A stretch of DNA of 64,000 nt from Rosa chinensis (taxonomy: Eukaryota; Streptophyta; Magnoliopsida; Rosales; Rosaceae). Of this stretch, positions 9,400 through 64,000 are shown piece after piece. Location: assembly GCF_002994745.2 (NCBI RefSeq), contig NC_037092.1, forward strand, positions 86,280,398 to 86,344,397. The letters run 5' to 3'. Made by a program: the position numbers and the translations under genes. The notes beneath the pieces were generated by a model. It was not told the origin of the DNA, did not search any database, and worked only from the letters and a program-made list of their open reading frames with translations. Numbering within the stretch: the stretch's first letter is position 1; every line of letters begins with the position of its first letter.

Positions 9400-10878
9400 C
9401 TAGGCTGTGAGGACGGTGAACACTGCATACCGCTGAGAGGATTCCGTCTGCTTGTTGCGATTGTCCCCCTGGGATTGGCGGTTGCCCTTGTAGTGGTTGT
9501 CTTTCTGCCTCTTGCTTTGGTAACCGCCCTGCTGCCACTCCCTCTTCTTGTCAGCTGGCGGTGCAGTGGGGGCTTTGCTGGCGGTCTCTTGATGGCTGGA
9601 GGAGGGTTGAGATGACTTTGTTGGTGTTGCTGGTGGCGGTGGGGTTTCTCCATATGTGATAAACTCTGCCTGGGCATGAATGACCGCCTCACTCATAAGG
9701 TGATCATACGCCGCATTTGGATGATTGTAGTTGAGGTGATATAGGAATGGTCCCTTGAGGAGTCCCTGCTTGAAAGCCGCCGAAGCCATTGTTTTGTCGA
9801 GATCGCGGCACTGAGATGCTGCCGCTCGCCATCTTGTGACGAATGCCTTCAATGATTCGTCCCCTCCCTGTCTGACGCCAAACAACTGGCTCGTGTTGTG
9901 ATGACCGGCGGACAACAAGATGAATCGAGAGAGGAAAGCATGAGATAATGCGTGGAATGAGTCGATGGACCCTGGCGGACACTCGAAAAACCAACTCATT
10001 GCCTCACTATCCAGCGTTTCGCTGAACAAGTGGCACAGGGTGGCGTCATCAAATCCCTTGTTGTTGGTGACCTTCTTGAACGTGTCCATGTGGACGAAGG
10101 GATCGGTCTTACCGCTGTAATGTGACATTTTTGGGGTCTTTGCAAACGCTGGTCTGACGGCTTGCAAAATTGTGGCGGTGAATGGGCCTGGCCTGGACGC
10201 GAAGAGTGGGTTTGGGGCTGGCGCCGGGGTGCCTGCCTCCGCCAGGATTAATCTCCGTTCTAACTGTTGCATCCTCTCCAAAATTTGGGTGGTTGCGTCG
10301 CCCGCGGGGCCCGCTCGGGCGTTCCGCGGATCGAACCCCCGACCGGGAATGGGTAGATTACCCTCAGTCCTTGTTCTAGTCCTCGAGTGGTGGGCGCGCA
10401 GTGATGACTCCGCCTCCTGCTCCGGCAGGTGTGGGATAGGGGGTGGTCCCATTCCTGCCAGCTCAGGTGGGCTTAGCGGTACCTGCATTTGCACGATGGG
10501 TCCTATACCAGCGGTAGGCCGGCTGTGTCTGGTGCTGTGCGACTGCTCACTTCGTGCAGGGTTGGCGTTTGCGCCCAGCGTTCGCCTTAGCTCGTCGAAA
10601 CGTGTCATCAGCGTGGCCACTTGGTTTTGGGCCTCCGCCTTCTCCTTGCGTTCCTGCTCGCGCTCTCTGTTTGCTTTGTGGAGGTCCGCCAGCGCCAATT
10701 CATATAAGGCGGTGAGGTCCTGACCTGGGGGACGGCTGCTGCTTGGATTTGTTTCACCGCCTGGGTTGACCGGGGTGTTGAATAGTGCACGGTTGATGCT
10801 TACCGCTGGGCGGGCGGGTTGGGGAACGGCGGACTGGTCTGCCTGCTCCCCGACATTTCCCCCGCTACCGTTAGTCAT
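9400..10878 (-). CDS. Gypsy Gag (capsid) protein
   Basis: A 492-residue open frame starts MTNGSGGNVGEQADQS. A charged, coiled-coil-prone stretch with HKANREREQERKEKAEAQNQ occupies residues of about 70-115. The Retrotrans_gag domain follows from roughly residue 240 (KMSHYSGKTDPFVHMDTFKK, AMSWFFECPPGSIDSF, ESLKAFVTRWRAAASQ), and the end is a basic, glutamine-rich tail. Gag forms the cytoplasmic particle that packages element RNA. The frame ends at TAG but continues open after it into the zinc knuckle and protease. Either this stop is a late mutation or it is read through; the sequence alone cannot decide. Confidence 0.87.
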   Translation of the reverse strand: MTNGSGGNVGEQADQSAVPQPARPAVSINRALFNTPVNPGGETNPSSSRPPGQDLTALYELALADLHKANREREQERKEKAEAQNQVATLMTRFDELRRTLGANANPARSEQSHSTRHSRPTAGIGPIVQMQVPLSPPELAGMGPPPIPHLPEQEAESSLRAHHSRTRTRTEGNLPIPGRGFDPRNARAGPAGDATTQILERMQQLERRLILAEAGTPAPAPNPLFASRPGPFTATILQAVRPAFAKTPKMSHYSGKTDPFVHMDTFKKVTNNKGFDDATLCHLFSETLDSEAMSWFFECPPGSIDSFHALSHAFLSRFILLSAGHHNTSQLFGVRQGGDESLKAFVTRWRAAASQCRDLDKTMASAAFKQGLLKGPFLYHLNYNHPNAAYDHLMSEAVIHAQAEFITYGETPPPPATPTKSSQPSSSHQETASKAPTAPPADKKREWQQGGYQSKRQKDNHYKGNRQSQGDNRNKQTESSQRYAVFTVLTA

Positions 10879-10913
10879 GGTAACTGTGATGGGATGACCT
10901 TCTGTTCAAGGAT

Positions 10914-41549: not shown

Positions 41550-44500
41550 GGCAAAATAGTCAAATTACCCCCTAACTTTTCTCATAGCTGCCATTTTACC
41601 CCCTGACATTTCAATTTTGATTTTTCACACCCTAACTTTTCTAACTCTTGCCGATTCACACCCTACCGTTAATTTTTAGATTTTTCATCCAATTTCTCCG
41701 TTAACTTGTTGGGCATTTTCGTCTTTCCAATTGACACCCAAAAAAAAAATATTTAAGCATACGTTAAGTAAGAGTATGAGACTCTTTTTTTTTTCTTTTC
41801 TTGTCAAGAGAAATCAAACGACAAAAGCGAAGACATGAAGCTTTCATTGTAGAGATGAAGCGGTCTTTTCTTTTCTTTTCTGAATATGGAATGGAGAAGG
41901 TGAAGCTAAGGAATAATGGAGATGTTCCAAACTACTGTAAGTGACTAACCTCTAGATTTTTCCATGTCTTTGAGTTCTAGAGAATTTTAAATTAGGGTTC
42001 TCTGAAGACGTTGATTTAGGTGGACTGGTGTATGGATCCAAAACTCTATTCTTTTGTTTGGTTTGTTCAATATCAATTAGGGTTTCTCAATTGTCTTTTG
42101 TGTTGATCAAACAATTCAGACCAAAAAAAAAAAAAAATCAAACAGTTATACGAAAGAATATAGAGTTGAGAGTTGTTTATGTAAATTTGTGTGTTTCTTA
42201 ATCTAAAATATGCATAGGCTTGCAGTCAATAATGCAGGAGAAGACTTGAAGTCGTAAGTGAACTTTGTCATTCAGTTTCCTACTTCAATTGATTTTAGGG
42301 CCAGTCAACAACAACTAGACTACTTTATTTTAGGGTTCTGTTCATGCTTTAACAGTTAACTCCTTGGATTACAATTTTATGTTATCTAGGTCATTTAACC
42401 ATTCAAACTTACCCATAATGTGGGTTGATCAGCATTGCATTCTTGTTCTGCATATATATATAGTCATTCATTGTTATTTAATTAACTAATTAATTTTTTT
42501 TTTTTCCTTTTTTGTGTGTGTTTTCTACAGCTGATCCAGACAATTTTACTCTTGAAATTAGACATGGGGGTGTATTTTCTAGTGGAGAGTATGTGGGTGG
42601 TTCTGTATGTTGGGCAGACAACTATGACGTTAACTTATTTAGCAAGTGGGACTTGGCAGTAATTGCTAGAAATCTTGGATATGATATTGAGAGAATTCAA
42701 TACTTTTTCTACCATAAAACTGATGGTTTGGTAGAGATAGATAGTGACATAAGGGTTCTAGAGTGTTCACTAAACCAATCCACTAGATAAGTTTCTGTTG
42801 CCTATATTAGTGATTGCATAGTTTTGGATGAAACTCTTGCATTTAATGAAGAATCACAAGTTACTCATCATGTTCAAGCTGACAATGGAGCGGGTGCATA
42901 TGGGGATGATAAAGCGGATTATGATATAGGACTTGATGTTAATGTCTTGGCAGATAATGATTCGGACGGAGATTCCAGCAATGATGAAGATGTACTAGAT
43001 CCTGAAGATGCACAGTGGTTTGTGGATGAAGAATATGTTCAGAGCGATGAAGATATGAGGCAGTTCAAGAGTTGTGTTGTAGATGAAATTGAAGTTGATC
43101 ATCATGTGGAACCTGGAGAGGAGTCTGATGATTGGGCTATGGACAGCGATGATCTTGAGAGCCTTGATGAGAGTTCAAGTGATGAGGAGGTTAATGAGAC
43201 TGTTAAGTACATGAAGCCTAAGAAAAAGCAACCAAAGTTCAAGCAATATAGAAGAGATACTGACTTACAAGATCCATACTTCAAACTGGGTCTGGAGTTT
43301 CCAACTATGACACAATGTAGGGAGGCCATAAGAGAATTGTCTATCAAATCTGGAAGGCCACTAAGTTTTGACAAAAATGATTCTGACAAGGTTATAGTGA
43401 AATGTAAAGGACAATGTAAGGGAAGTTGTCCATTCAAAATATATGCATCTATGGTTGGGAATGGTCCTACTGTGAGGGTCAAGACTTATGAGCCATTGCA
43501 TCACTGCGGGAGGTCAAAAAAAATAAAGCATGCTACTTCTACTTGGATAGCAGACAGGTTTGATGAGGTCTTCAGATCCAATCCCAAAATAAAACCTAGA
43601 GACTTTATTCGAATGGTGGCTAAGCAGTACGGGATTGATGTTACACTTGATCAGTTTTATAAGGCCAAGGAAAAAGCTAAGAGGAGGATACAAGGTGGCA
43701 TTCAGGAGCAATATGCGGTACTAAGAGATTATGGTGAAGAATTAAAGAGACTTAACCCGGGCAGCACTGTTAAAATTAAAACTGAAATGACTGAAGAAGG
43801 GCCTGTATTTAAGAGAATATATATTTGTTATGCAGCTCTAAAGAAGGGTTTCATTGAAGGTTGTAGAAAAGTAGTAGGATGTGATGGGTGTCACATTAAG
43901 GGTCCATACAAAGGGCAGCTTCTAAGTGCTGTAGGGGTCGATGCAAATAATGGTATGTACCCGATAGCATTTGCCATCGTTGAAGTTGAAAATAGAGAGA
44001 CTTGGATGTGGTTTCTGGAATACTTTATTAATGATGTGGAGATTTTAAATGCGGGAAATGGTTGGGTCTTTATTAGTGACAAGCAAAAAGGTCTACTTGA
44101 TGCTATTGAAGAGTTGATGCCTCAAGCGGAACATAGGCATTGTGTTAGACACCTCTACAATAATTTTAAAGGTGCTGGTCACACAGGACTTGCATTGAAG
44201 CAAGGTATGTGGGCAGCTTCGAAGTCCACTACTGTTCCTTGGTTTGAAGAAGAAATGGACAAGGTATTAAGGCTGTGTAAAGATGCTCATGACTGGTTGA
44301 GAAAAAGGGCTGCAATTCATTGGAGTAGGTCGCATTTTAAAACTGAGGCCAAATGTGATATACTCCTTAACAATCTTTGTGAAGCATTCAATTCTGCCAT
44401 ATTGGAAGCAAGAGATAAACCTATCCTAACAATGCTGGAGAGGTTGAGAATGTACTTAATGCTGAGGATGGCAAAGCAAAGGGAGTTGAATTGGACACAA

Positions 44501-46864
44501 CCTGTTGGACCAAGAATATTTGGTATTATCGAGAAAAACAGAGAACTGAGTAATAATTGCTATGCTGAATCTTCCATTGGAGGCCATTTCGAGGTCACTC
44601 ATCTTCATGGAAGAAAATTTTATGTTAATATGGAGGATAGAACTTGTTCATGTAGAAAGTGGGACCTTTGTGGTATTCCATGTTCTCATGCAATGACTTG
44701 TCTTGGTTGGATGGATGCAAGTCCATATGATTTTGTACATAACCATTACAAGAGGGAGGCTTATGACCGAGCCTATGGTTACTTCTTTTGCCCAATGTCC
44801 AGTCAAGACTTGTGGCCTAAAACTGGTGGCATGCCGATTCTTCCACCACTCTATCACAAACAACCAGGAAGGCCCAAAAAGAGAAGAATTTTAGAACCAA
44901 ATGAGATTCCCAAAGGTGCAAAAAAGCTACAGAGATATCATGCCCCATCTAAGTGCACACTTTGTAAAAATGAAGGTCATAATAAGAGGACATGTCCTCA
45001 GGTATGTATTCTAACCTTTCATTTGTAGTATTGTACTATAACTTCAATATTAAATAAAATTTTCATGTAGCTTGTTCAACATTAAATTCCTTATGTTCTC
45101 AGAGAGGACAAGCACTAGAACCTCCTCCTCATGTTCCAGCGAGCGAAAATATGTACAAGGCAAGTGGAACAGCAAGAGGAAGGGCTAGAGGAACCGTAAG
45201 TTTAAAAGCCTCTTTGTTTAGTTTAATGTAAGTAATGGCTTTGGTGAATGATTTGAGAAATTGTAGTATCCTTACAGGGCACAAATAGAGGAAGAGGTAT
45301 TGGAAATTCAATTATGATGGAAGAAGCACAATTTGGACAAGGAACAAGAGGACAAGTTAGTCAATTAAGTCTATATACTAGCATACTTAACTTATGTTTG
45401 TTTGTTTAAATTTTTTATTTATTAATATTTTTTTAATTTTCACTTTTAAATTTGCAATGTACTGTAGGGAAGACATGGTGTTCAATATGTTAGAGTTGGG
45501 GGGACTAGAGGAGGAAGAGGCCAATTTGTTGCTCCAACAAGAGAAAGAGGACAGTTTGAAAGCTTTATTGGAAGGTCACAATCTACAAGTTTCGGTACTA
45601 GAGGAGGAGGACAAACATTTGCAAGTGCCGGAAGAGGAAGAAGCCAATTCATTGCTCCAACAAGAGGAAAAGGGCAACCTACAAGCTTTGGTAATGGTGG
45701 AGGACAAGCTCTCCCAGGTATTGAAAGAAGAAGGGGACAATATGTAAGTTCATTTAATTATTCAAAGAACTTTTATTTTGCGTTGGATTATGAGTATGAC
45801 AAGTTTTGGGTTAACATTGTATGTCAAAAATAAGCTAGTCTTTTTTTTTTTTTGGTTACAAAATAAGCTAGTCTTTTGCATTGCGGTATATGCTATGAAT
45901 CATCCTTAAATTTATGTGGAAACTCTTTTTATTTATTTATTTATTTTTCATTTTTAATACTGTCAAATAACAATATACTGAATTTTACTTTTATTGTCAT
46001 ACTTTGTTTTCTAGGTCAATCGTGCCACTCGTATAACTCAAGTGACAATGCATTCTACAATCAGTACTGAAGCTACCGCATCTCAACCAATTTCTAAAGC
46101 TAGTGACAATGCATTCTAATGCATTCTACACTCGTATTACTCCTGCCAACAACAACACACATTGGAAGCTATAGAATATAAATTAGTGGTCTTTGTTAAA
46201 ATTTCAAGTACGTGGTGAATCTATTAGGATATATAGTTTAACTGATGAAAGAACAGAACATTGTTTTAGTATTTGTCTTACTATTAGTTGAAGTGTTGAT
46301 TATGCCTTCATTATGGAAAACCAATGTGCTATCAAATTTAGCTCTTTAATTTAAGTGAAGGGATTATGTAAAAATTCTAGCATTGTTTTGTGTGAAAGTT
46401 AATCATGACTTGAATATTTGGATTTTAGACTTGATTATTTTGGCTGAGATAGCTCTAATTGTAATGAACTATTGAATGACTTATTATTCAATTGCGTTGA
46501 GGAACCAACAATTATGGTTTTGGTGAGAGGGAGTATGATTTACAGTTTTAGGGTTGATATCTTTTTTGTTGGTGTTAAGAGTTAAAAAAAAAATAAAAAA
46601 AATAATAAAAAAACCCTCATTTGTATGTATTGATATTCTTGAACAATTGGTTTGTTTAGTGTTTTTTTTTTTTTGGATGATGATTGGAAAGACGAAAACG
46701 CCCAGCAAGTTAACAGAAAAATTGGATGGAAAATCTAAAAGTTAACGGTAGGGTGTGAATCGGCAAGAGTTAGAAAAGTTAGGGTGTGAAAAATCAAAAT
46801 TAAAATGTCAGGGGGTAAAATGACAGCTATGAGAAAAGTTAGGGGGTAATTTGACTATTTTGCC
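41550..46864 (+). mobile_element. Autonomous-type Mutator-like element (MuDR family)
   Basis: Terminal inverted repeats of about 183 bp (41550-41732 and 46682-46864) begin GGCAAAATAGTCAAATTACC and match with only a few differences. Runs of at least nine A flank both ends, consistent with an A9 target duplication. The interior encodes a spliced MuDR-type transposase. It lies inside the larger MULE 36392-50082 but has unrelated termini. Confidence 0.92.
41891..46119 (+). pseudogene. MuDR-type transposase with one in-frame stop
   Basis: A likely first exon 41891-41936 (MEKVKLRNNGDVPNY) splices in phase to 42531. ORF text follows (DNFTLEIRHGGVFSSGEYVG), a TAA at 42788-42790, then an open frame to 45000. 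In that 734-codon frame are an acidic region (about 1-135), a MuDR DNA-binding-type domain (about 150-215), the MULE transposase domain with Asp in VGCDGCHIK (about 350) and FISDKQKG (about 416), a SWIM zinc finger CSCRKWDLCGIPCSHA (about 606-622) and a knuckle CTLCKNEGHNKRTC (about 709-722). Further exons (45103-45195, 45277-45355, 45468-45717, from 46015) add an RG-rich tail. The TAA sits between the N-terminal and DNA-binding parts; otherwise the gene looks intact. Confidence 0.85.
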
Positions 46865-48855: not shown

Positions 48856-48974
48856 TCGTCTCTGCAACATTTCCTTCCTTTGATATCACAAACTTGCTCT
48901 TAGTTCTTTGGGCCAGAAACAGACTGAACATTGAATACAGACCACTGAAGTACCAGGGTACATTGATGAAAATC
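48856..48974 (-). pseudogene. Patellin-like (SEC14 domain) exon fragment
   Basis: After an acceptor TTCAG the minus strand reads IFINVPWYFSGLYSMFSLFL then AQRTKSKFVISKEGNVAET and a stop. This matches the core of the SEC14/CRAL-TRIO domain of plant patellins, phosphoinositide-binding proteins of the cell plate and plasma membrane. Only one exon is recognisable, followed by a stop. Upstream exons at 49085-49146 (GKGEWTITPILHDATEVPV) and 49377-49637 do not look like patellin, so the transcript region may be a chimera of captured pieces. Confidence 0.75.
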
Positions 48975-49084
48975 TGAACCCAAAAACAAAAAACCCACAT
49001 CATAAACATCTCAAAAATCAGAGTCCCACAACATAATTAACAACCCAGGGATTTAAACTAGTAGACAAAAAGAAAGAAACTTAC

Positions 49085-49640
49085 AACTGGCACCTCAGTG
49101 GCATCATGAAGAATAGGAGTGATAGTCCATTCACCCTTGCCCTAGAGATTAACAAAACACAAAAAAACGTCAATTTCGAACAACAAAGTCAGAGAATCAA
49201 ACCGTCAAACAAGTAATCTGGGTTATGAAACGGTACTGAATCATGGTCAAGGATAACAGCAAAATCTAAGGACGAGAGCATGATAAAATTAACACACATA
49301 TGATCTAAAACATCAAAATAACAAAGTAATTCCAAAACATTTCAGATCTGAAACAGAAAATCAATGCAAGCCAGATCTAAGAGGCATACCTAGCTCGAGG
49401 TCCGCAGCCACCGGAACAGAGAGCTTCAGTGCGACGGACACTGACACCATGCTGGTGGAGATCAGCACGATCTTCAGAGAGAGTAACCAGTTGTTGCACG
49501 AACTCAGTCACATTTTTAGCGGTTGATAGGATCAAGAGCACGACATTTTCCGGCGAGAGTTTTGTTTTGAGAGGTTGGGGATTTGGGAGGCAAAGAGAGA
49601 GCGTGGGATTTGAATGAAATTGGAGCTGATGGACCAAGAG
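49085..49640 (-). pseudogene. Two exon-like segments of unknown family inside the large MULE
   Basis: At 49637-49386 the minus strand reads KLSPENVVLLILSTAKNVTE, then FVQQLVTLSEDRADLHQHGV and a GTATGC donor. At 49146-49085 it reads GKGEWTITPILHDATEVPV between an acceptor TAG and a GTAAGT donor. Both look like genuine spliced coding sequence; I do not recognise the parent gene(s). Confidence 0.4.
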
Positions 49641-50061: not shown

Positions 50062-53000
50062 CTAAGGAGAGGATCCTCTCCCAATTTGATCAGATGGTGG
50101 TAGGCTTGAGGGTGCAGTGGAAGACATATGACATGTATGGTCACCTCTGTATATTACTTCAAATGTTAAGGGATCATTGTCAAGCCTCTGAACTTCCTTC
50201 TTGGCTGGGCAATTGTATAAGTTTTGGTGGGTACACCTATAGTAGCCCCTAAATTCATTGAAACACATCATACAGTTAATTAATTTTACGCTTTGATAAA
50301 TTATTCTTTGTGAATTGCGTATATGAAATTAAAAAAATTTACTAAGTAGATGATACTTAAATTTCAAGATTACAAATACATAATTTAACATCAAGTTGAC
50401 GAATACGTGGAAAGAACTAAACACAATGTATCAAATTGGCTAAGTGCTAAAGAGATCAAAGGCAAGGGACCAAAATGCATGTTACTATCCATTGATCAAT
50501 TATAAGTTTGGCTATAACCCGGCCAATTGAAGATTTAGATTAAAGAATACATATGATCGACTATGATATTGAGGTAGACATTGTCATTTGACCAATAGAA
50601 CATTCTCAGGTCAATGCCCATCCTTGGCAGAAGTCTGCCCATTTACCAAGTATCTTGCAACTTTTGGGAATTAAAGATCATTTGACAATTAAGTTCCGGT
50701 ACAAACTAATTGATGTTGCTGACCAAGTCAATTTCTGGTCAACTCTTGAATATTTCATAAGGTAAAACCTAGCAGGAATAATATGACACTCACCAACTTG
50801 AATCAAATTGGTAAGAGCTTAATCTTCTAGGTAATCACTGAAGCTATAGCTAGCACACATAGCTTTCCTGGTAAAACCCAAAAAGTTCTTTGTAAAATGT
50901 AGAAGCTTGCTTACTTTTCAATTGAAAATGTCAAATTAATTTTCCATTTTTCAAACCAATACAATAGATGAAAACATAAATATAATCTTCGTTACAAAGT
51001 GAATTACATACCTTGGGAAACTGCAGCCCATGATCTCCTTCTGGCCGTATTTTCGCCAAGTGAAGCCATCATCCGGTGGGATTTCAGTACTCCCGATCTG
51101 AGGTGCCGGCACGGTCAATTTACGAATTTCCCCACGGTCCCTCCTACATGTTTAAGTAATTAGATGAATGTAAGAACACTAATCCACAGTAGCTCAAACT
51201 ATAGCCACAAATACAATACATGCACACATGAAGTTGCTAAGCAATTTACAGCTATCTAGCTCGTCTTGTACAGTAAAAGACATATGAACGTAGAAAAATG
51301 CATTCTATGTTTAAAGTCGCTATCCCAGAAGCAGAGCTAGCATGGTAATGCTACTCTACTTACCCAACATTTTTCCTCAATTCTTCTTCGCAAAACATAC
51401 CATGAAACCAGCCAGATATGATTTTTGTATCATAGCAAATGTCAATGCAACTTTGTGGGTGATAATTGAATTCATATCAAAGTAAGCTTTTATATTTAAT
51501 AAGAAGCTTTTATATATTTATTTATTATGATAACTCTATATTTCCTTGGGGTACTAATACATCTGTAATAACTAACCTTTTATATTTGTTTATTATGGCA
51601 TGGCCACAATTATATACAAGATCCAAGAAAACCAACATGACTCAGGTGGCGACCCATGTTGATCAGCTTTTCATACTTTGTTAAATAAAAAAGCAAAAGA
51701 AGAATGGTCTGTACAGACATACCTTCTCTTTACAATGTCCAATTGTTGTGGATGATTGAATTGGACTTTGTTCCTGCTATGGAAGCCAGACATTGAAAAC
51801 TGGGGGAACCTCTCCACAGTTTGATCAGATGGTGGTAGGCTTGAGGGTGCAGTGGACGACATATGACATGTATGGTCACCTCTGTTTATTACTTCAAATG
51901 TTAAGTGATCATTGTCAAGCCTCTGAACTTGCTTCGTGGCTGGGCAATTGTATGAATTTCGGTGGTTACACCTATAGTAGGCCCTAAATTCATTGAAACA
52001 CGTCATATAGTTAATTATAGGGTTTGATAAATTATTCTTTGTGAATTACGTAGATGAAATAAAAAAAAATTACTAAATAGATGATACTTAAATTTCAAGA
52101 TTACAAATACATAATTTAACATCAAGTTGACGAATACGTGGAAAGAACTAAACACAATGTATCAAATTGGCTAAGTGCTAAAGAGATCAAAGGCAAGGGA
52201 CCAAAATGCATGTTACTATCCATTGATCAATTATAATTTTGGCTATAACCCGGCCAATTGAAGATTTAGACTAAAGAATACATATGATCGACTATGATAT
52301 TGAGGTAGACATTGTCATTTGACCAATAGAACATTCTCAGGTCAATGCCCATCCTTGGCAGAAGTCTGCCCATTTACCAAGTATCTGCAACTTGTGATCA
52401 TGGGAATTAAAGATCATTTGCCAATTAAGTTCCGGTCAAAACAATTGATGTTGCTGACCAAGTCAATTTCTGGTCAACTCTTGAATATTTCATAAGGTAA
52501 AACCTAGCAGGAATAATATGACACTCACCAACTTGAATCAAATTGGTAACAGCTTAATCTTCTAGGTAATCACTGAAGCTATAGCTAGCACACATAGCTT
52601 TCCTGGTAAAACCCAAAAAGTTCTTTGTAAAATGTAGAAGCTTGCTGACTTTTCAATTGAAAATGTCAAATTAATTTTCCATTTTTCAAACCAATACAAT
52701 AGATGAAAACATAAATATAATCTTCGTTACAAAGTGAATTACGTACCTTGGGAACCTGCAGCCCATGATCTCCTTCTGGCCGTATTTTCGCCAAGTGAAG
52801 CCATCATCCGGTGGGATTTCAGTATTCCCGATCTGAGGTGCCGGCACGGTCAATTTACGAATTTCCCCATGGTCCCTCCTACATGTTTAAGTAATTAGAT
52901 GAATGTAAGAACACTAATCCACAGTAGCTCAAACTATAGCCACAAATACAATACATGCACACATGAAGTTGCTAAGCAATTTACAGCTAGTTAGCTCGTC

Positions 53001-56000
53001 TTGTACAGTAAAAGACATATGAACGTAGAAAATGCATTCTATGTTTAAAGTCGCTATCCCAGAAACAGAGCTAGCATGGTAATGCTACTCTACGTACCCA
53101 ACATTTTCCTCAATTCTTCTTCGCAAAACATACCATGAAACCAGCCAGATATGATTTTTGTATCATAGCAAATGTCAATGCAACTTTGTGGGTGATAATT
53201 GAATTCATATCAAAGTAAGCTTTTATATTTAATAAGAAGCTTTTATATATTTATTTATTATGATAACTCTATATTTCCTTGGGGTACTAATACATCTGTA
53301 ATAACTAACCTTTTATATTTGTTTATTATGGCATGGCCACAATTATATACAAGATCTAAGAAAACCAACATGACTCAGGTGGCGACCCATGTTGATCAGC
53401 ATTTCATACTTTGTTAAATAAAAAAGCAAAAGAAGAATGGTCTGTACAGACATACCTTCTCTGTACAATGTCCAATTGTTGTGGGTGATTGAATTGGACT
53501 TTGTTCCTGCTATGGAAGTCAGACGTTGAAAACTGGGGGCACCTCTCCACATACAAGTATTCCAGTAAAGGGCACTCAATAGCATTTCCAGTACTACCAC
53601 AGAACCTTGTGAACCTTGTGAGTTGTGGAAGCTTTATCAAAGTTAAGTTCTTCAATTCTGGAAAAACAATCATATTGTCTACTGTGTCCTTACTTGCTTC
53701 AATAATGCTGTCCAACATTGGGCAAAGCTCGACTGAAAGATCTCCCAAGTGCAAAAAACATTGAGCTACATCAGCTGTGAAGAGAGTCTCCAGTTCAAAG
53801 CACCTGGAAACTACCAAACTCTGAAGATTCCGGAAGACTGCACAATGAGCAGGACCATTCCATATCTTTATTAGTTTCCCTAGATTCTCCAATCTCATTT
53901 CTATCAATTCGGTCAAAATCAACTGTTTTGGCTCAAGCTCTTCACATCCAAAAATATATTTTAATTCATCCATCTCTTCACAAATCAGTTCTTTCAGATT
54001 TTGTAATCTCTGCAGCAACTGTGACGGGAGGAGTGCATCCACCAATTCATAGCAATGTTTCACCTTCAGTAACCTAAGATTGCATAGAGACCCAGGTGGC
54101 AATTCACCAACACATAACTCCTTCAGGCAATCCACTTGAATGAGATGCAACTCTTCCAAGTTTTGAAACACTGGTTCATTCCGAAAGCGTGTCACTGTGT
54201 TCATCAACACTTTCAAGTTCTCATTGGGCCCAATAACAGATAAATACTTCAGTGCATGTAATCTCCCGCAGTCAAATTCCACAAGAATGTTATCTAATCC
54301 CCAACACATTATGTACTGTAGTTTCTCTGCTTTCATTGTCACCACATTGATAAACCAACCCGGTAAGGCATTGATGCTTGTATCAAGAGTCAAGGCTCTT
54401 ACAAAAGCGGGTGAAGAACTTGAAACCAAGGACCCTTTTCTGATTGATGGGTCTCTGCTGATACAAATATCAAACTTTACCCAGTTTGGCTCAACCTCCA
54501 CATCTCTAGGCAAACATTTAGCATCAGATATGAAGACCTTCAAAACGTTTAGATATGACAAGCCAGTTAACTCATCAAACGCAACAATAATTTCTTCTCC
54601 TGCTCCCTCAACTTTACTCCTCCAGTCTGCAAAATTACACTGCATGTATAGTTCCTCTAACGAAGTAAGGTTGCATATCACTTCAGATGGAACATTATCA
54701 ACATAATCACCAGTGATGTCTAACATCCTTAGATGGTTCAAATCTCCAATTTCTTTTGGCAGTTCCACAAGAGGAAGTTCTTTCATACTAAGAATCTCAA
54801 GTTTTTTCAAGTTTCCGAGTATGGATATGTTATCTATGGTTGACAAGCAACCATCTAGATACAAGGTCTGGAGGTTGATCAAGATATTGAATGATGTGGG
54901 TAGTAAAGAAATTCTGGTTTGGCTTAGATCTAATACCCTCAACACATTCAGACTCTGAAAGAAACATTCTGGGATCACATTCAACCAAACATTACTTTGC
55001 AGAAACAAAATCAGGAGTTTCGGACATACCAACTCTTCAGGAAGCTTGCAAATTTTATTCCTAATTAGTGAGATAGCAGAGTAGCCGTCATGTGCACTAA
55101 TACTTGGCCATTCCTTTAACTGACAATCAGCTTGTACAAAAAACAGTGGGCCATCCTCGGATGACGAAACCCGTATGGCCACATCCCGAATGACATCATG
55201 CATCTTTACACATCCGTCCCGTTCAGATTTCAAAAGTAAGCCACAATCTTTAAGGTACTTGACCACTGAATATGCACTAGCTCTGGCATCATGCATTGTG
55301 CTGGAATCTTGAAACAATCCTTTCCCCATCCCATATTTTAGCAAGTCTTCAATTTGGATATCATAGTCTTCTGGGAATAGGCAACAAAGCAAAAAGCATG
55401 ACCTGGCATCATCAGATATTAAGTAATCATAGCTTAATTTTATACAATTGAACGCTACTTTCCCATCTTCAAGGTTGGCAGGTTGAGAAGCCTCTAGTCG
55501 TCGAGCTGCTTCTGTCCAGTCATCCAAACACTTATCACCAAGTGCCTTCGCAACTGCTATCAACGCAACTGGAAGACCAGCACATGCTCTAGCTACCTTC
55601 TTTGCAACATCACAAAAATTGGTTGATTCAAAAGACATTCTTGCTTTGTTCACAAATAAGGTCCAAGAATCTTCTTCTGATAAGACATCAAGAGAAATGT
55701 TTGACTGGCACTTCATGGCACAACAGACATTCTGTGTCCTTGTGGTGAGTAGGACTTTGGAATTGCATCTTTGAAGCTCGTGGTAGCTGGGAATTCCAAT
55801 GTTGGACAAATCTATTCTCTCCCAAATGTCGTCCAAGATTATAAGGATCCTATTTCCTCTCCTTATATTCTGCATCAATCTACGGGATCTTCCAATTTCT
55901 GTCTCCTCCTCGAACATAAAACCCAACATATCTGCCAATGTGCCTTGAATTTTTCTCAAGTTGGGGATTTTGGATACAACAGCCGTGATCACATGCTGGA

Positions 56001-57660
56001 ACATCCCATTATTCTGAACTGCTTCACTAACATGTTCAACCATGGTTGTTTTTCCAACACCTCCGATTCCGTAGACCCCAACGGCAGTGACCTTATCATC
56101 TGTAAGCGCCTTCATAACCTCATTCATGGCTGTTCTTCTTGATTCAAATGCTTCAAAATCTCCGGTGGACATTGTAAACTCAATTTCAATAGGGTGTACT
56201 TTACTGCACACAAAATCCACAATATTGTCCACAAGTTCTCTATCAGTCCTACAAGGAAGGAAGAATCAAAGGTCAAATAATCATCCATTATGAAAATTAA
56301 TAATATATCTAAAACCTGTAGTCTCATCATGATACTTACTTGTAAAGCTTTGCATGCCACCCAAAGAGACTGGCTACATGGTTTAAAACATCTATCAAGC
56401 GCTTCACCTTGTCTGATGTGTGTCGCCTAGAGCTTTCATGCTTATCGAAAGCTTCTCCAAAACTCCTCTTCCGGTACCGTACATCAGAGGGTTCCACATT
56501 ATAAAAAACTGGAAGAATTCTGCCCTGGTCTTCCATGCACTCACAGATTTTTGTAAGTTCATGCAAACACCAAGTAGAAGAAACGTAGTCTTGCGAGAGA
56601 ACAACGATTGCAAACCTTGATTTTTCAATTGCCTTTATGGAAGCGCCAGAAATACTATCCCATACTTGAAGATCTAGTTCATCCATGAATGCATTGATTC
56701 CTCTCTTTTTTAGACAATCGTATAAATGGGAAGTAAAACCCCTTCCAATATCTACACCCCTGAAACTCAAATACACATCATACTTCCACTCAACAGCTGA
56801 TGATGAAGAAGACTCCAACGGGTTTTTCAGGGTTATCTTGCCTCCGCCTCCCATCCCGTAGACCCCAACGGCACTGACCTCATCATCATCTGTAAGCCTA
56901 TCCATGGCTTGTGTTGTTTCTTCAATTACTTCAGGACCTCTCGTATTGATTTCAATAGGTTGTACTTTTTCGATTTCCACACCAGATTGTACTTTGTAGC
57001 ACACGGATTCCAAAATGGCTTCGACAAAATCTCTGTGAGTCCTACAAGGAAGAATTAAGGGTCAAATAATGGTCAGCTATATTAATAAGCACAAGTATTA
57101 TAACTCTTTAGTAATTGAGATAGCCAGTCTCATGATGCTTACCTGTAATCCCGTGTATTCAACCCAGGCAAACTGCCCACTTTTCTTAAGGCATCTCTCC
57201 ACTGCTGGACCTTCTCCGACGTGTATTGCCCATACTTTTCATAAATGGCGAAAGCATCTTGAAATTGCCCCCGTTGATTTCTTACATCAATAGGGTCGAC
57301 ATAATAAACTGGAAGAATTCTGGTGCCGTCCTCCATGATCTGACAAATCTTTGTAAGTTGCTCCAAACACCGAGCAGAAGAAGCATAATTTGAAGTCAGA
57401 ACAACAATTGCGAGCCTTGATCCTTCAATTGCCTCTAGGAGAGTGGGAGACATATCATCCGCTGCTTCAAGATCTGAGTCATCCATGAATGTTGTGATTC
57501 CCCTCTCTTGCAGCTGATAGTATAAATGGGACGGAAAACCCCTTAGAAAGTCAGTACCCCTGAAACTCAAAAACACGTCATACTTCCAGCGACGAGCTGT
57601 TGATGATGGTTCAGCTGATGAAGGAAGAGAAGCATCAGTTTTTTTAGGGATCGAGGCCAT
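50062..57660 (-). CDS. Chimeric NLR: TIR-TIR-NB-ARC(CNL type)-LRR-WRKY-WRKY
   Basis: Seven exons, all with GT..AG borders and compatible phases: 57660-57143, 57041-56340, 56248-53456, 52878-52747, 51983-51723, 51143-51012, 50248-50062. They total 4,725 bases, exactly 1,574 codons plus stop. Domains: TIR1 (about 25-160, WKYDVFLSFRG); a stray P-loop GMGGGGKIT (about 235-243); TIR2 (about 258-395, WKYDVYLSFRG); NB-ARC with P-loop GIGGVGKTT (about 466-474), kinase-2 LIILDDIW, GLPVALIAVAKAL, CFLLCCLFPEDYDI and MHDVIRD; LRRs (about 780-1310); then two WRKY domains, each WRKYGQKEIMGC with C-x7-C...H-x-C ligands (group III), split by the usual intron after FPR. The W ending kinase-2 and the RNBS-D text are of non-TIR (CNL) type. 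Such proteins sense pathogen effectors in cytoplasm/nucleus; integrated WRKYs typically act as decoys. An alternative start at 57720 adds 20 residues; 57660 (MASIPKK) looks more natural. Confidence 0.88.
50083..51817 (-). repeat. WRKY duplication unit A (distal)
   Basis: About 1.73 kb matching 51818-53551 at very high identity with a few small indels, carrying the last bases of a linker exon, intron, first WRKY exon, intron and second WRKY exon. It is truncated on its 3' side by the MULE at 50082. Confidence 0.92.
51818..53551 (-). repeat. WRKY duplication unit B (proximal)
   Basis: Direct tandem partner of unit A, offset by about 1,735 bp. The join near 51817/51818 (CTCTCCAC/AGTTTGATC on the plus strand) fuses the second WRKY exon to a copy of the PQFS..FHSRNKVQFNHPQQ end of the LRR exon, so the linker is itself duplicated. 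Confidence 0.92.
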
Positions 57661-61943: not shown

Positions 61944-63023
61944 TTAATCAAAATCGCCAGTTTCTGGGTCTTGATCCTTGTAGTCTTCCACCCTTAGATC
62001 TAGATCACTATCTTGATCTTCTTGTGCCATGTAATTTGCTTCCCTTGCTTCACGATACGTCTTGTATGCGTTTGCAACATTCTGGGGTGCGGTACATGTT
62101 TTGGCCCAATTTTCAATTGATCCACATCGAAAACAAACATCATTATGGTCAGGCTCCCTTGATCGAGGCGCCATTGGGGCTCGATTTGGACGACCTATCC
62201 TCTTGGTGGCGTTACCACCATGGTCGGAGGCTCCGCCTCTCTCTCTCTTCACACGTTGACCTCCATGGTTTCGTGCACGCCTCTCTTGGCGATTTCCTTC
62301 CTCTTTAGGGCGAACATATGGACCAGAATTGTCCCTACTCCTAGGGTTTCACTCCTTGGGTCCTCCATTGGGGGCGCGATTATAGTTAGACTCCGGAATA
62401 GGCTTAGTTCCCACGGGTCTAGCATTATAGTTCTTCACAAGAATATTGTCGTGCTTTTCAGCTACGTTCATGGCGCCAATGAGCTCATAAAACCTTGTGA
62501 TACGTCCTGCATTTACATCAATCCGATAATTCTTTGAAATCATCAGTGCAGAGACGAGGAAGGTAGAGAGAGTCTTCTCGATCAACATCGTATCAGTTAT
62601 GGCTTGGCCACAAAACTCCATCAGAGACTTGATACGAAGAGCTTCCGAGTTATAATCAAGCACAGACTTGAAATCACAAAAGCGGAGGCTATGCCATCCC
62701 ACTTCTAAATCAGGAAGCAGGGAGTCACGCACGTTGCCAAATCCCTGCTCAAGTTCTACCCATAGCTTTCTTGGGTCTTCCTCATTGAGGTATTCATTTT
62801 GGAGCGCGTCATTCATGTGCCTTGTTATGAGGATTATGGCTTTAGCTTGATTTGCTTCAAAAGCAGTAGCTTGCTCAATGAAGAGCACGTTCTGACTAGG
62901 CTCTTGGATGGTTTCCAGAAGTCCTTCAGCCTTAAGATGTTGGCACACATCTCGGACCCACCTATGGTATCCTGCGCCATTTCTCTCGAGTAGAACAAAG
63001 TTCAACTTGTTCAGGTAACTCAT
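61944..63023 (-). pseudogene. Copia Gag with degenerate zinc knuckle
   Basis: From MSYLNKLNFVLLERNGAGYH the frame runs 225 residues to 62349, with copia Gag features (WVRDVCQHLKAEGLLETI, AKAIILITRHMNDALQNEYL, FCDFKSVLDYNSEALRIKSL). After a stop, a separate frame (62252-61944) carries CFRCGSIENWAKTC, a CCHC-like knuckle in which the His position is Asn. Upstream in-frame codons to 63191 are probably leader. Confidence 0.8.
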
Positions 63024-64000
63024 CCTGAAAAACAACACAAGATTAGGGTTAGTTTCGGAGCGAAAAAGGCTACCACAAAAAACTATTAAATTTCTGAGCG
63101 TAGTCGCTTCCAAGAAATTAGGAATTTTCTGAGCGTAGTCACTTCCAAGAAAATCCGATTCCAAGAGGGGTTTTGGATTAGATCGAAACAACGATGTATG
63201 TGGTCGATCGTTTTCTTCTCAACAAACTCTAAGTTTGGAGGACTCTACAAGCTCCAAGCTTGGAGTGAGCACGAACCCCCACAGTTCGGCTATTGGTCTC
63301 CCCTATGTAGAGAAAGGGGGGTAGAAGAAGGCAGGTTGCAAGTCCCCGAGAAAAGAAGAAAAGAATGAAAAAAAATTTCAAAAACGGGAACTTTTAGAAA
63401 AGTTTACCTTAAAAAGATTGCGGAAAAGTGGTTGCCGAAAATTTACTGTAGCTGCCAGAGTTACTGTAGCTGACCGGAAAGTCGCCGGAAGTTGGCCTGA
63501 AAAGTCGCCCGAAAAGTGGCTGGAAGTTGGCCGGAAAAGTTGACGGCGGTGGTTGACCGGAGGGTTGACCGGGGTTGACCAGATTGCTGACGTGGCACTT
63601 ATGCTGACGTGGCAGATGACTGGAGGCTGACGTGGCAGCTGACGTGGATGCGGATGACGCAAGGATGACGTCAGCTGGGTCCGGTTGTTGGGCTTCAGGC
63701 TGCTGGGCCTCAGGCAGCGACTTGGGCTCGGCTTGGGCTTCTCCTTTTTTTTTTTTTTTTTTTTTTCTCTCTTCTCTCTCTGCCGGTTCGGTTTCAACCT
63801 TTTCTGGTGGCCGGTTCGGATGATTCTAGGCTGGTTCCGGTAGAGGTTTTTCAGGTTCCGGGTTTCTGGGGTGGAGATGCTGCAGGAGGTCAAGTATGGC
63901 TACAGGAGGTGGTGAGGAAGACTTTGAACCGGGCAGGGGAACTTTTTGCTTCTTCCGGTGGCCGGTTCGGTGGTTTGCCGGCCGGTTCTGGAGATGGGGC
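63024..64000 (-). other. Copia leader region
   Basis: Non-coding, GC-rich in 63420-63720. It contains three TTGACC words (63550-63582), repeated TGACGTGG words (63586-63650) and a T-run near 63747-63765. No LTR or primer site identified before the window end. Confidence 0.5.

Follow-up and report, generated by a model that had tools for sequence, protein, structure and literature searches.

To which class does a plant receptor of the nucleotide-binding leucine-rich repeat (NLR) type belong when it opens with two TIR domains, continues with an NB-ARC of the kind found in NLRs with an N-terminal coiled coil (CC), termed CNLs, and closes with two WRKY domains, and how could such a gene have been assembled? 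The question is raised by a gene of Rosa chinensis on the minus strand of a 64,000-nucleotide stretch of contig NC_037092.1 (positions 86,280,398 to 86,344,397), called the window hereafter, in which seven exons extend from 57660 to 50062. The spliced frame was reconstructed and comprised 4,725 nt, that is 1,574 codons and the stop, with zero internal stops. All six introns showed GT-AG borders and phase 2, and the internal exon lengths are all multiples of three because every intron is in phase 2. Pfam analysis of the predicted product revealed the order TIR-TIR-NB-ARC-LRR-WRKY-WRKY (scores of 7.6e-76 for the TIR stretches, 2.4e-46 for NB-ARC, 2.4e-28 for LRR_RPS2 and 1.4e-46 for the WRKY stretches). 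The motifs GIGGVGKT, LIILDDIW, CFLLCCLFPEDYDI and MHDV were read in it, along with two copies each of WRKYGQK and of the zinc pattern C-X7-C-X23-H-X-C. The results are in accordance with a preliminary description of this DNA, which had proposed seven phase-matched exons in one 1,574-codon frame and each domain in this number and order; its coordinates were right.

It is fairly probable that this is one NLR gene built via phase-2 intron shuffling, whose product would act as a sensor through integrated decoys and would combine a switch of CNL type with a live second TIR (TIR2) and a non-catalytic first TIR (TIR1). The evidence for each part is presented below, the compared proteins being cited by P numbers.

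Class of the NB-ARC and its family

The NB-ARC alone was compared with the solved structures. The top matches were CNL or RPW8-type NLR (RNL) chains, with 1.3e-33 for 9h2l and 2.3e-23 for 6j5t (ZAR1), while RPP1 (7crb, 3.9e-10) and Roq1 (7jlv, 6.3e-9) were far lower. The motifs of the domain are intact and likewise belong to the non-TIR type. Trees of the NB-ARC were built from 61 rows by a quick method and from 25 rows by a careful method. In both, the Rosa NB-ARC fell among Rosaceae proteins of RPS2 type, including TIR-less rows of Malus, Pyrus and Rubus, and the canonical TIR-NB-ARC-LRR proteins (TNLs) P0142 (Argentina), P0143 (Rosa) and P0152 (Fragaria) formed a separate clade with a support of 99 in the 61-row tree and 100/100 in the 25-row tree. 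A topology joining all TIR-bearing NB-ARCs was moderately disfavoured by the approximately unbiased (AU) test on the 25 rows (p 0.025). The preliminary description had named placement in the TNL clade as the outcome that would overturn it; the trees placed the domain elsewhere. Its claim of a kinase-2 ending in W, with further text like that of RPS2 and RPS5, likewise held, as LIILDDIW was seen and the NB-ARC grouped with the CNLs of RPS2/At4g27190 type.

The gene thus carries the N-terminal TIR of a canonical TNL without the TNL-clade NB-ARC or the kinase-2 D, and the NB-ARC and RPS2-type LRR of an RPS2/At4g27190-type CNL with TIR exons at the place of the N-terminal coiled coil. It is hardly credible that the gene is a plain TNL in which the final W of kinase-2 arose by convergence. 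TIR2 does resemble the TIRs of the TNLs RPV1, RUN1 and Roq1, but the NB-ARC structure scores, the trees, RNBS-D and LRR_RPS2 all argue otherwise, as do the CC-like starts of apple and pear relatives.

Those relatives emerged from a homologue search in which 120 of the 497 passing proteins were listed, that is 119 besides P0001, the annotated protein of this gene. Among the matches listed, the nearest NB-ARC was that of P0003 (86% identity), and 107 of the 119 homologues joined a TIR to an RPS2-type NB-ARC, the mark of the family, which the Rosa gene shares as TIR on RPS2-type NB-ARC-LRR. These TIR-bearing proteins were named from Rosa, Fragaria and Argentina and were mostly annotated as 'probable disease resistance protein At4g27220' and similar (the At4g27190/At4g27220 type). 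The remaining 12 lacked a TIR; nine of them were named Malus or Pyrus and two Rubus. The starts of ten of the 12 were examined by eye and eight appeared CC-like; Rubus P0116 retains a clear TIR start and Rubus P0101 a faint one. Of 117 NB-ARC stretches scanned for kinase-2, 108 gave W, P0010 gave Q and one gave V, with seven unmatched. On reading, a final W was found in P0064, P0023 and P0112 as well, and the five others were partial or changed stretches that held no motif; no kinase-2 ending in D was present in the 117 stretches scanned and read.

A topology in which the TIR-bearing RPS2-type NB-ARCs form a group that excludes the TIR-less rows was also disfavoured in the 25-row set (AU p 0.021), perhaps due to the Rubus models being damaged TIR genes. 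A single gain of the TIR in Rosoideae is likely, though not proved, and we infer from these sequences that a TIR exon took the place of the CC in that lineage. The cross-class fusion of the preliminary description therefore stands in part: a CNL-type NB-ARC does lie beneath the TIRs, but the mixing of classes, real as it appears from the comparison, is an inherited family state found in 107 of the 119 listed homologues and no invention of the Rosa gene. No description of TIRs on RPS2-type NB-ARCs as a class, in Rosaceae included, was found in the open-licence literature. 'TIR-CNL' is used as a subgroup name in Trifolium (PMC10138078), and a study of 12 Rosaceae genomes placed every gene within the clade of its own subclass, without exception (PMC9685399).

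Two TIR domains of unlike active site

The active sites of the two TIRs were compared at the position of the catalytic Glu, as established in work on RUN1, Roq1 and RPP1. TIR1 reads SARCLEQL (57378-57355), where Gln replaces the catalytic Glu and R replaces W; TIR2 reads STWCLHEL (56578-56555) and is intact, with the Glu kept. Among the matches listed, the Glu was present in 91 of 93 rows from single-TIR proteins (two not scorable); multi-TIR proteins gave 37 rows, of which 31 have the Glu and four were not scorable. Both exceptions have Gln, namely TIR1 of the Rosa gene and TIR1 of Fragaria vesca P0006. TIR1 is also short of one residue near the VDP motif, as judged by eye. Structure prediction gave TIR1 a TIR fold with a mean predicted local distance difference test (pLDDT) value of 78, its best match in the PDB being the Roq1 TIR, with the RPV1 and RPP1 TIRs also among the best. 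The TIR2 piece was likewise predicted as a TIR fold (mean pLDDT 73.7; residues 26-81 of the piece under 50). From the active-site residues, TIR1 is probably dead and TIR2 probably live. The plural in the phrase 'TIR signalling modules' of the preliminary description is accordingly doubtful, as TIR1 has Gln in place of the catalytic Glu.

At least two full TIRs were found in 12 of the 107 TIR-bearing homologues listed. Between the two TIRs of the Rosa gene lies a P-loop remnant, the corresponding site of P0006 is P-loop-like (GTGGLGKS), and among the multi-TIR proteins compared such a remnant occurred in P0006, P0001 and the Rosa gene only. The shared remnant and the shared Gln suggest that the double TIR is older than the Rosa/Fragaria split; the TIR tree backs this weakly. 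In that tree of 52 rows, TIR1 was nearest to the TIRs of P0002, P0003 and P0004 (80/67), so an internal duplication is no likelier than a fusion with a tandem neighbour. Simple internal duplication had been the first reading of the double TIR and was given up, the tree making the joining of a paralogue equally likely. The resolution of the 52-row tree was too poor to identify the TIR donor.

The state of TIR1 also bears on a quite unlikely alternative in which the gene is a decaying member that no longer confers immunity, TIR1 and the P-loop remnant being debris and the WRKY capture neutral. TIR1 has lost the Glu, the preceding Trp and, by eye, one residue near VDP; the BB-loop of TIR2 is odd, and disorder is predicted for the linker that holds the remnant. 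Against decay, the NB-ARC, LRR, TIR2 active-site and WRKY motifs are intact across an open frame, and TIR1 itself has an open frame and a predicted TIR fold. As TIR1 of F. vesca P0006 has the Gln too, even a dead copy may have stayed open for long.

Guest domains were also observed in other family members. In the close relative P0002 (R. chinensis LOC112164559, 2,561 aa), two TIRs flank a protein kinase domain (residues 235-486), and two NB-ARC-LRR units come after them. P0003 (Rosa sericea, Pfam match) and P0004 (R. chinensis, precomputed domains), also close relatives, have an EDR4-like N-terminal domain before the TIR. A nucleosome assembly protein (NAP) domain occurs in P0020, where it is C-terminal, and, by precomputed domains, in P0023, P0050, P0054 and P0112. 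The family seems prone to domain uptake, which the uniform intron phase would ease.

Probable capture and later doubling of the WRKY domains

The origin of the WRKY domains was analysed with a 40-row tree, for which P0152, P0169 and P0208 gave no WRKY row. Both domains fell inside the Rosaceae WRKY55 clade (98/98); they are of group III type with intact heptads and zinc ligands, which agrees with the two integrated WRKYs of the preliminary description. R. chinensis WRKY55 (P0153), which is listed on a contig of different length, showed 92% identity over 41% of a 237-aa query. Across the Rosaceae rows of the tree the WRKY55 domain hardly varies, and that of Rosa is identical to that of Fragaria over 82 aa. 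Compared with these 82 aa, WRKY-a had 11 differences and WRKY-b had 7, of which 4 are common to both.

The homology to WRKY55 begins within one codon of the splice acceptor. P0002-P0004 have the same LRR end up to RR and continue into short tails without WRKY; a conserved splice donor at this site is therefore suggested, and the WRKY55 exons thus appear to have entered the terminal intron with matching phases. The end of the LRR exon is also part of a tandem repeat of about 1.7 kb, and the junction of the WRKY and the second LRR end is in frame. Neither this repeat nor the P-loop remnant figures in the preliminary description. On this sequence evidence the WRKY55 exons are read as captured and later doubled together with about 1.7 kb of the gene. 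No heptad of WRKYGQK type was found in the 107 TIR-bearing homologues listed. In a search with the C-terminal region, which returned 36 matches, only P0001 combined WRKY55-type WRKYs with the TIR-RPS2-type core. Besides P0142, P0143, P0152 and Vigna P0138 and P0139, which are described below, the matches comprised proteins of LRR-WRKY or NLR-WRKY type from Asteraceae, Malvaceae, Beta and grasses, and fusions of RPS2-type LRR with WRKY recur in varied orders in Asteraceae, Malvaceae, Vigna and Beta (P0121, P0123, P0126, P0130, P0138, P0139, P0144).

Differences between the two WRKY copies were counted at 13 of 285 coding sites (11 non-synonymous and 2 synonymous; dN 0.051, dS 0.033) and at 29 of 1,335 intron sites, the coding and intron proportions giving p 0.037. 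A quicker change in the WRKY bait is suggestive from these counts and no more. The WRKYs could instead be an output or targeting arm, which binds W-box DNA and brings the receptor to the promoters of WRKY55 targets; this is judged unlikely. The intact WRKYGQK and zinc pattern of both copies and the near invariance of WRKY55 across Rosaceae agree with such an arm, but the 11 and 7 differences over 82 aa are unlike a domain tied to one DNA site, and the WRKY of Arabidopsis RRS1 acts as a decoy that effectors bind or modify (PMC9528088).

The 3' end raises the question of whether all the exons are expressed together. P0001, named 'disease resistance-like protein DSC2 isoform X2 [Rosa chinensis]', matches the predicted product without a difference over the first 1,513 residues (exons 1-6), after which the ends diverge. 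The model of the gene stands as a sound prediction, and the joining of exons 1-7 in a single transcript is a prediction of this reconstruction and of the annotation alike. An artefact of the gene model, in which the TIR-NB-LRR gene and the downstream WRKY exons are mostly transcribed apart or skipped and the 1,574-codon mRNA is rare or absent, is considered improbable. The predicted nature of the joining, the other 3' end of isoform X2 and the WRKY-less tails of P0002-P0004 after the same RR speak for it. They are countered by six GT-AG introns of matching phase without a stop, the coverage of exons 1-6 by the annotated model, the heptad and zinc ligands kept in both WRKY copies, and the in-frame tandem junction with the LRR end within a WRKY exon. 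The positions of the features are summarized in Table 1.

Table 1. Features of the Rosa chinensis NLR gene, as positions in the 64,000-nucleotide window
Feature	Positions	Strand	Remark
Exon 1: start codon, N-terminal tail, TIR1	57143..57660	-	
Exon 2: post-TIR linker, NB-ARC start ending in P-loop remnant, then TIR2	56340..57041	-	
Exon 3: RPS2-type NB-ARC, winged helix, MHD, LRR	53456..56248	-	motifs intact; splice donor after RR
Exon 4: first half of WRKY-a with WRKYGQK	52747..52878	-	WRKY55-like
Exon 5: zinc finger of WRKY-a, in frame with duplicated LRR-exon end	51723..51983	-	
Exon 6: first half of WRKY-b with WRKYGQK	51012..51143	-	
Exon 7: zinc finger of WRKY-b and stop	50062..50248	-	
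Alternative 3' end of isoform X2 (P0001), replaces exon 7	48892..49140	-	matched pieces 49140-49105, 48963-48892
P-loop remnant GMGGGGKITL between the TIRs, residues 235-244	56828..56857	-	
First TIR, intron and NB-ARC-start unit	56828..57606	-	67% DNA identity to 56041-56806
Second TIR, intron and NB-ARC-start unit	56041..56806	-	
Tandem unit copy 1: LRR end, intron, WRKY exon, intron, WRKY exon	51805..53551	-	96.6% identity to 50071-51818
Tandem unit copy 2	50071..51818	-	

In the rest of the window, an open frame of a Mutator-like (MULE) transposase lies at 42791-45025 on the plus strand, about 5 kb past the WRKY end, and is a possible carrier of WRKY55. Retrotransposon reverse transcriptase and gag frames were seen on the minus strand at 1-1728, 9403-10905 and 62352-63218, the last below the Pfam cut-off. 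Rfam gave zero matches at gathering scores.

Known systems, proposed mechanism and meaning

The gene was compared with known systems of similar order. The RW2 R protein-WRKYs of strawberry (Rinerson 2015, PMC4350883) are described as TIR-NB-ARC-LRR proteins that carry one or two WRKYs of group III, an order found in the Rosa gene at the level of description; as described, they have one TIR and an NB-ARC of unstated class, and the Rosa gene has two TIRs. P0142 (Argentina), P0143 (Rosa) and P0152 (Fragaria x ananassa) also show TIR, NB-ARC, LRR and a C-terminal WRKY. They differ in a TNL core with WHD_ROQ1 and C-JID (P0143 scanned; P0142 and P0152 by precomputed domains), and the 40-row tree places the WRKYs of P0142 and P0143 apart from the WRKY55 clade (P0152 is not in the tree). 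The nearest parallel outside the family is provided by Vigna P0138 and P0139, which share the N-terminal TIR, RPS2-type LRR and C-terminal WRKY; they have one TIR, an NB-ARC that is weak in P0139 (1.2e-5) and undetected in P0138, and WRKYs outside the WRKY55 clade. Malus P0117 shares the RPS2-type NB-ARC-LRR and the C-terminal WRKY, but its N-terminus is CC-like and its degenerate WRKY (WKNCGQ) grouped with P0142/P0143 (95/94, on a long branch) outside WRKY55; it is therefore probably an independent fusion. P0117 had also been considered as a sign of an ancient shared WRKY fusion, which was dropped as the WRKY tree grouped it elsewhere. WRKY55 itself is a group III transcription factor, of which just two exons' worth is present, twice, on the NLR.

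Arabidopsis RRS1 is also an NLR with a C-terminal WRKY, and the Rosa gene has the heptad and zinc site intact; RRS1 is called a TNL, has one TIR and works with the partner RPS4, in which pair TIR-TIR contacts restrain signalling (PMC9528088). Cotton GhRVD1 has two N-terminal TIRs ahead of the NB-ARC, as does the Rosa gene, and neither TIR alone caused cell death (PMC10170703). It comes from a TIR-NBS-LRR cluster, and the available portion of that article mentions WRKY 0 times. By analogy, GhRVD1 or RRS1/RPS4 could serve as a model for the two TIRs of the Rosa gene. Both F. vesca and M. domestica have NLR-WRKYs on record (PMC4759884), WRKY-associated NLRs of strawberry form their own NB-ARC subclade (PMC6778783), and 24 TIR-TIR-NBS-LRR (TTNL) genes were reported across six Fragaria genomes (PMC5806312). 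In rose, WRKY was reported in three of 96 TNLs, among them the pathogen-induced, WRKY-bearing RcTNL23, possibly the same gene (PMC10045381). Nothing in the literature and proteins compared contradicts the preliminary statement that a characterised gene of precisely this architecture is not known.

The proposed history would begin in Rosoideae, where a TIR exon would have replaced the CC upstream of an RPS2/At4g27190-type NB-ARC-LRR exon. An extra TIR would have been added by internal duplication or by the joining of a tandem neighbour, probably before the Rosa/Fragaria split, and the WRKY55 exons would have been captured later, after the last LRR splice donor. In function, a pathogen protein able to bind or modify WRKY factors would engage the WRKY55-derived baits, upon which the RPS2-type NB-ARC and LRR would be released and oligomerise. 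TIR2 may then produce NAD-derived signals for the EDS1-RNL pathway, with TIR1 as a putative non-catalytic assembly or restraining domain. A bolder form of this, which is rather doubtful, would place a sensor-executor pair in one chain, with the dead TIR1 as the restraining sensor TIR, the live TIR2 as the executor and the tandem WRKY55 baits tripping the release through the CNL-type switch; more broadly, a Rosoideae class would couple TIR enzymes to CNL switches and gather immune-regulator domains between phase-2 introns.

Several results weigh against the reading of one decoy-bearing NLR with a live TIR2. Both AU p values are moderate (0.025 and 0.021), and the 61-row tree carries long-branch warnings. 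In the TIR tree, TIR1 of the Rosa gene and TIR1 of P0006 were grouped with just 80/53 and the two TIR2s were ungrouped. A TNL without the catalytic Glu yet giving resistance is on record (PMC12856790), so the Gln is no proof of an idle TIR1. The BB-loop of TIR2 reads VW where 90 of the 93 single-TIR rows listed have xG; without the usual Gly, TIR2 may therefore be weak too. The coding excess between the WRKY copies is modest and their introns are uneven (6/577 and 23/758), and relaxed constraint or gene conversion would explain the excess as well. The 3' end of isoform X2 would deprive WRKY-b of its zinc finger. A second NLR, such as the partner of RRS1, was not matched in the 64-kb window by seven query proteins.

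With its many TIR-bearing members placed on the CNL side of the tree, the family provides a natural test of whether a CNL switch can drive TIR output. To this the Rosa gene adds a probably dead TIR next to a probably live one, and its capture of WRKY55 names a testable host target for the effectors of rose pathogens; its design is unusually testable.

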